Source: Candidatus Abyssobacteria bacterium SURF_17 (GTDB taxonomy: Bacteria; Abyssobacteria; SURF-5). Taken from it: a stretch of DNA of 64,000 nt. Position 1 is the first letter of the stretch; each line of letters starts with the position of its first letter. The notes below the pieces were generated by a model that worked only from the letters and a program-made list of their open reading frames with translations, was not told the origin of the DNA and made no database searches. Shown here one piece after another: positions 52,072-52,545 of the stretch. A program made the translations under genes and the position numbers. Location of the stretch: the NCBI GenBank assembly GCA_003598055.1, contig QZKI01000015.1, forward strand, positions 1 through 64,000, written 5' to 3'.

Positions 52072-52545
52072 ATGGAAGGATTAACCATTGCACTGATCGG
52101 CGCGGCATTTGGCTTTTTGCTTGCGGCCCTCGGGTCGGCCATCGGCACTGGTATAGCCGGTCAAGCGGGTTCGGGCGTGGTAAGCGAAGACCCACAGAGA
52201 TTCGTGAGCATGCTCATACTGCAGGCATTGCCGGGAACACAGGGATTTTACGGCTTTGTCGCCCTTATGTTCGTCATCAATATCGTACTGGGCGGTGGAA
52301 AGATGCCGACGCCACAGCAAGGTTGGCAGATAGTGTTTGCCTGTGCTCCGATAGGAATCGTTGGGTTTCTCTCAGCGATCTTTCAGGGGAAGGTGTGCGT
52401 TGCGGGGTGCAGCCAAGTCGCCAAGCAGCCGGGAACGCTCGGCTCGGCTCTGATATTCGCCATTGTCGTCGAGACGTATGCGGTGCTCGGCCTTGTGTCC
52501 ACGCTGATTCTCCTCCTCAGAGTGCAGCAGGCGGTACAAGGATAA
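52072..52545 (+). CDS. ntpK: V/A-type ATPase rotor subunit K with Na+-binding residues
   Basis: The protein has 157 residues: two fused helical hairpins as in Enterococcus hirae NtpK. The ion-binding Glu is E134 ([11 protein letters not shown]). The residues that coordinate Na+ in NtpK (Leu61, Thr64, Gln65, Gln110, Glu139) have visible equivalents here: L53-P-G-T56-Q57 in helix 2 ([11 protein letters not shown]), Q105 in helix 3 (IFQGKVC) and E134. The first hairpin lacks a carboxylate, as in V-type proteolipids. This suggests Na+ rather than H+ coupling, an inference from the ligand set. Confidence 0.93.

Follow-up and report, generated by a model that had tools for sequence, protein, structure and literature searches.

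A predicted Na+-type V/A-ATPase beside Mrp antiporter genes in Candidatus Abyssobacteria

Genes of the locus

We analyzed a 64,000-nucleotide stretch of contig QZKI01000015.1 from Candidatus Abyssobacteria bacterium SURF_17 (the window). Seven mrp genes (mrpA-G, 43701-49525) are followed on the same strand by a V/A-ATPase locus (49733-58386), with a gap of 207 bp between the two sets. The mrp genes are intact. The ATPase locus is complete, with all nine genes intact and in the order H-I-K-E-C-F-A-B-D. For each feature, we show a matching family model, its score, and the model's cut-off where one was compared.

43701-46001, + strand: mrpA (766 aa); NCBIfam NF009287, subunit A, 1027.5 bits against a cut-off of 937
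46077-46499, + strand: mrpB (140 aa); NF009163, 177.2 against 148
46501-46851, + strand: mrpC (116 aa); NF009302, 177.3 against 154
46886-48397, + strand: mrpD (503 aa); NF009306, 596.6 against 542
48394-48867, + strand: mrpE (157 aa); NF006519, 173.7, under the cut-off of 190; full length
48864-49130, + strand: mrpF (88 aa); NF009243, 99.8 against 95
49127-49525, + strand: mrpG (132 aa); NF009314, 118.9 against 102; TIGR01300, 80.1 against 63.1
49526-49732, + strand: gap of 207 bp from mrpG to the ATPase genes; includes TTGACA-18-TAGCAT at 49644-49673, a promoter-like site
49733-50044, + strand: peripheral-stalk subunit H/G (103 aa); TIGR02926 (AhaH), 36 bits, below the cut-off; in the same place in the sister genome
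50044-52056, + strand: subunit I (stator a, 670 aa); NCBIfam V-type subunit I models
52072-52545, + strand: subunit K (rotor proteolipid, 157 aa); NF005124, 150.8 against 127
52634-53242, + strand: subunit E; NF003049, E = 4.5e-23, below the strict cut-off
53220-54242, + strand: subunit C (d); NF002266, E = 1.1e-67
54235-54543, + strand: subunit F; NF002384, E = 8e-24
54606-56384, + strand: catalytic subunit A (592 aa); NF003220, 908 against 470
56387-57772, + strand: subunit B (461 aa); NF003235, 788 against 349
57769-58386, + strand: subunit D (205 aa); TIGR00309, 154.7 against 72.25

A first-pass annotation of this DNA had reported all seven Mrp subunits in front of the ATPase genes, and the NCBIfam models find each of them. 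Six of the seven are over at least one model cut-off, and MrpE is slightly under. The A-G order, which begins with a long MrpA (766 aa), is that of the known seven-subunit Mrp (Mnh/Pha) antiporters; unlike those, the mrp genes in the window adjoin a V/A-ATPase locus. Mrp is a family of Na+/H+ antiporters that can also act on other cations. We found no genes for redox subunits between the mrp genes or just before them, and because redox genes do not adjoin it, we ruled out that this Mrp is part of a redox complex of the Mbh/Mbx type. Upstream of mrpA are an adenosine deaminase gene and an unassigned open reading frame of 85 aa.

Five of the ATPase subunits (H, I, E, C, and F) score under the strict NCBIfam cut-offs, yet they match those families and their genes sit at conserved places in the locus. 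The best match of subunit I in the PDB is NtpI of Enterococcus hirae (8wci_P, E = 1.8e-61, full length), and the next-best solved structure is from a eukaryotic H+-type enzyme (E = 7.7e-17). Beyond the ATPase genes, the window encodes a SulP-family permease (59847-62045, + strand, 732 aa) with an extra hydrophilic segment of about 140 residues (roughly 238-378), which is flanked by the two stretches to which the family models align.

Na+ ligands in subunit K

The K subunit is of the double-hairpin V/A-ATPase type and contains the stretches IFQGKV and VVETYAVLG. The first-pass annotation had claimed that it carries the five residues that coordinate Na+ in E. hirae NtpK. To align the two proteins (NtpK: 2bl2/2cyd/2db4/3aou/8wci), we used phmmer (E = 2.6e-25). 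The alignment spans residues 3-149 of the window's K and 11-154 of NtpK (147 residues), and the ligand columns are in register: L61, T64, Q65, Q110, and E139 of NtpK (we checked this numbering) align with L53, T56, Q57, Q105, and E134. All of the claimed positions do superimpose, but the count of five needs correction. Leu61 of NtpK donates only its backbone carbonyl (PMC2359735), so a leucine side chain at this position is not diagnostic; 28 relatives have methionine there. The Na+ site has four side-chain ligands, and the informative set is Thr, Gln, Gln, and Glu. Alongside these ligands, the equivalent of Tyr68 of NtpK, which is Y60 in the aligned column, is a stabilizer.

An AlphaFold2 model of the K subunit (from 29 aligned sequences) has four helices and a mean pLDDT of 97.5. 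Its best fold match in the PDB is the NtpK ring protomer (2bl2_A; TM 0.89, rmsd 1.3 A, 38% identity, E = 8.7e-10), so the agreement with the NtpK ring is at the level of the protomer fold. Full-length homology and the fold together rule out a chance or misaligned ligand motif.

By a published criterion, H+ rings have an aliphatic residue at the Gln65/Thr67 position (PMC2359735). This is absent from the window's K, which has Gln57 there. Consistent with the criterion, an aligned H+-type human c subunit has Ile at both the Thr and the Gln positions; in these columns, the window's K matches NtpK and differs from human c. Overall, the sequence, the fold, and what is known of the family make the prediction that K is of the Na+ type well supported.

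The ligand set is widespread

We gathered 80 distinct K proteins from GTDB genomes and a further genome set by similarity to the A and K subunits of the window; this sample describes near relatives, not all V-ATPases. Thr, Gln, Tyr, Gln, and Glu (T/Q/Y/Q/E) occupy the ligand and Tyr positions in 74 of the 80 proteins (the window's own included), and 73 of these 74 have L, M, or I at the backbone-donor position. The other six comprise three proteins with Ser in place of Thr and three that are short or remote and lack the set. Across the 29 aligned K proteins, P54, T56, Q57, G58, Y60, Q105, E134, and Y136 are invariant. The relatives come from Lachnospiraceae, Coriobacteriia, Synergistaceae, Atribacteria, Planctomycetota, Streptococcus, and others. 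In the V-ATPases of the first four of these groups and of others in GTDB, the I-K-E-C-F-A-B-D order is shared with the window along with the ligand set, but the Mrp genes are not beside them. The backbone-carbonyl position, Leu in the window's K, is Met in K subunits from Coriobacteriia.

The ligand set is not a distinctive trait of this organism, given that 74 of the 80 compared proteins have it, and since it is nearly universal in the family, it says little about the Abyssobacteria organism in particular. Na+ specificity has been predicted from such ligands since 2008 (PMC2359735). Taken alone, the ligand match is nothing new: as predicted from its sequence, this is an ordinary Na+-type V/A-ATPase of the E. 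hirae kind. With the E. hirae Ntp enzyme (2bl2; 8wci) it shares the double-hairpin K, the four side-chain ligands, the backbone-donor position, and Tyr68, and its subunit I is nearest to that enzyme among solved structures. It differs in that its K subunit is 38% identical, Mrp genes lie in front, and the host also has an H+-type F-ATPase.

Other ion pumps in the genome

The genome assembly is 4.64 Mb and 92% complete. It encodes an F-ATPase whose c subunit has M, A, and L in place of the Gln, Ser/Thr, and Thr of Na+ rings. With Leu at the Gln65/Thr67 position, this c subunit identifies the F-ATPase as a predicted H+-type enzyme by the published criterion. On another contig (G000:C81, L109, 131-18116), complex I genes (NuoF-like, G, J, K, L, M, and N) lead directly into the F-ATPase operon. 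This proton module, with complex I and the F-ATPase in one neighborhood, mirrors the arrangement of Mrp and V-ATPase in the window.

Several other likely Na+ pumps are present. Contig C83 encodes Rnf C, D, G, and E. A membrane pyrophosphatase (G000:C2, L005 1477-3567, - strand) is nearest to the Na+ pump of T. maritima. It has the equivalents of Glu246 (in DLLES), the Na+-pump position, and of the Ala (in GNTTAA) that is typical of K+-dependent enzymes. A second Glu is found at the plant H+-pump position (SYVEA), and because Glu is present at both the Na+- and the H+-pump positions, the ion specificity of this pyrophosphatase is uncertain from sequence. There is also a gene for an OadB-like sodium-pump beta subunit (G000:C29, L124 1426-2574, + strand); no gene for a decarboxylase alpha or gamma subunit is evident in the surrounding 4 kb. 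Given this complement of genes, the cell is likely to manage gradients of both Na+ and H+.

Coupling ion and direction

We infer Na+ coupling from the gene set, the ligands in K, and the predicted fold. Very probably, the window encodes a complete E. hirae-type V/A-ATPase that exchanges ATP with a Na+ gradient, with the H+ F-ATPase and complex I forming a separate system. Each four-helix K subunit would bind one Na+ using T56, Q57, and the carbonyl of L53 from helix 2, Q105 from helix 3, and E134 from helix 4. Rotation of the ring against subunit I would carry Na+ and so couple Na+ flow to ATP. The Na+ gradient would also be supplied by Rnf, by the membrane pyrophosphatase, and, out of the H+ gradient, by Mrp, which would transfer energy between the two gradients. 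The separate H+ F-ATPase would serve the proton gradient with complex I. The first-pass annotation had proposed a sodium cycle in which ATP turnover is tied to Na+. The Na+-type K and the other likely Na+ pumps agree with such a cycle, but the genome also has an H+-type F-ATPase, so Na+ is not the only ion involved in ATP turnover.

Alternatively, the ring might be promiscuous or mainly H+-coupled in the cell, its Na+ ligands being an inheritance from an ancestor that used Na+. In the absence of Na+, rings of the Na+ type can carry H+, and H+ enzymes retain some of the Na+ ligands (PMC2359735); also, the set hardly varies among members of the family, so descent alone could explain its presence. 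However, what is kept in 74 of the 80 K proteins is the full set, with the equivalents of Gln65 and Tyr68, which indicates selection, and the F-type c subunit of the same genome lacks this set, with the M, A, and L described above in its place. We consider an H+-coupled ring to be improbable.

If the ring is Na+-coupled, the enzyme could run in either direction: it is reversible and most likely exchanges ATP with a Na+ gradient. Rnf and the pyrophosphatase might feed a Na+ gradient that is used for ATP synthesis, or the V/A-ATPase might pump Na+ as in E. hirae. A stricter version of the second option is that the V/A-ATPase is solely an ATP-driven Na+ exporter, with Mrp as an additional exporter under salt or alkaline stress. 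This would fit with Mrp being a known Na+/H+ antiporter family and with the F-ATPase being on hand for synthesis. The E. hirae V-ATPase does export Na+ in the cell, and in liposomes it makes ATP from a Na+ gradient (PMC12018189). Against a role in export only, Rnf, the pyrophosphatase, and the OadB-like pump could already export Na+ at zero ATP cost, and a pump that burns ATP would be redundant beside them; no sequence feature fixes the direction, and a role in synthesis is likewise putative. We give the exporter-only role somewhat less than an even chance.

Pairing of the Mrp and ATPase genes

To compare the locus within the phylum, we had three genomes, all from one family. In one sister genome (G002), mrpA-G are followed by H-I-K-E-C-F-A-B-D in the identical order, with the strand also conserved, and most of the encoded proteins at this locus are only 45-68% identical to those of the window. 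The other (G001, 92% complete) is without the K subunit; it is also without a V/A-type A subunit (the matches are only F-type-like, at about 32-36% identity) and has no true MrpD (the best match is 28% identical and lies at apparent complex I genes). Thus, the adjacency is found in one of two genomes from the same family, and the other genome is without both modules. Two joint presences and one joint absence are too few for statistics.

Beyond this family, none of the 44 relatives having at least 3 kb of sequence upstream of subunit I has Mrp in front of the ATPase. Two MrpD-like matches were rejected: the one near the ATPase genes of G003 is NuoN, about 10 kb from them, and the one in L054 is more than 5 kb downstream and on the opposite strand. 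In the literature that we could search, no paper dealt with a cluster of Mrp and V-ATPase genes. The pairing looks particular to one family and is the unusual part of the finding.

The first-pass annotation had also linked the two gene sets functionally. From the adjacency in one sister genome and the joint absence in another, we infer that Mrp and the ATPase may be functionally linked, although the gap of 207 bp and the absence of the pairing from the 44 relatives weaken this. The Na+ ATPase could be real and the adjacency incidental, with two separately transcribed ion-homeostasis loci being neighbors by chance. Besides the 44 relatives and the lack of a paper on the pairing in the literature searched, the gap of 207 bp with its promoter-like site would fit with separate transcription. 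Of all sigma-70-like matches in the region, this one is the best; they are as numerous there as chance predicts (6 versus 6.4), and G002 does not share the site. On the other hand, gene order and strand are kept in G002 despite the low protein identity, and G001 is without both modules together. The shared strand and the order kept in G002 would suit co-transcription of mrpA-G with the ATPase genes, whereas the gap and its promoter-like site would speak against it. We rate an incidental adjacency as a toss-up.

A broader and more tentative idea, which we think is rather unlikely, is that the phylum divides its energy conservation between two paired and separately encoded modules, complex I with the H+ F-ATPase and Mrp with the Na+ V-ATPase, and that the second was gained or lost as a unit and has Mrp exchanging the gradients. 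The analysis adds a poorly sampled phylum to the bacteria with a predicted Na+-type V-ATPase, and it puts putative H+ and Na+ rotary ATPases in separate gene neighborhoods of one genome. The enzymes could therefore be used to study how a cell operates with two ion currencies. Interest, of a mild degree, comes solely from the Mrp pairing and this two-currency layout.

A third rotary ATPase is found in the sister genome G002 only (L115, C128). It is encoded by an N-ATPase-like F-type cluster, and its c subunit has the Na+-type motif IESTAIY as well as a Glu in helix 1 (GEGRAVAQ).
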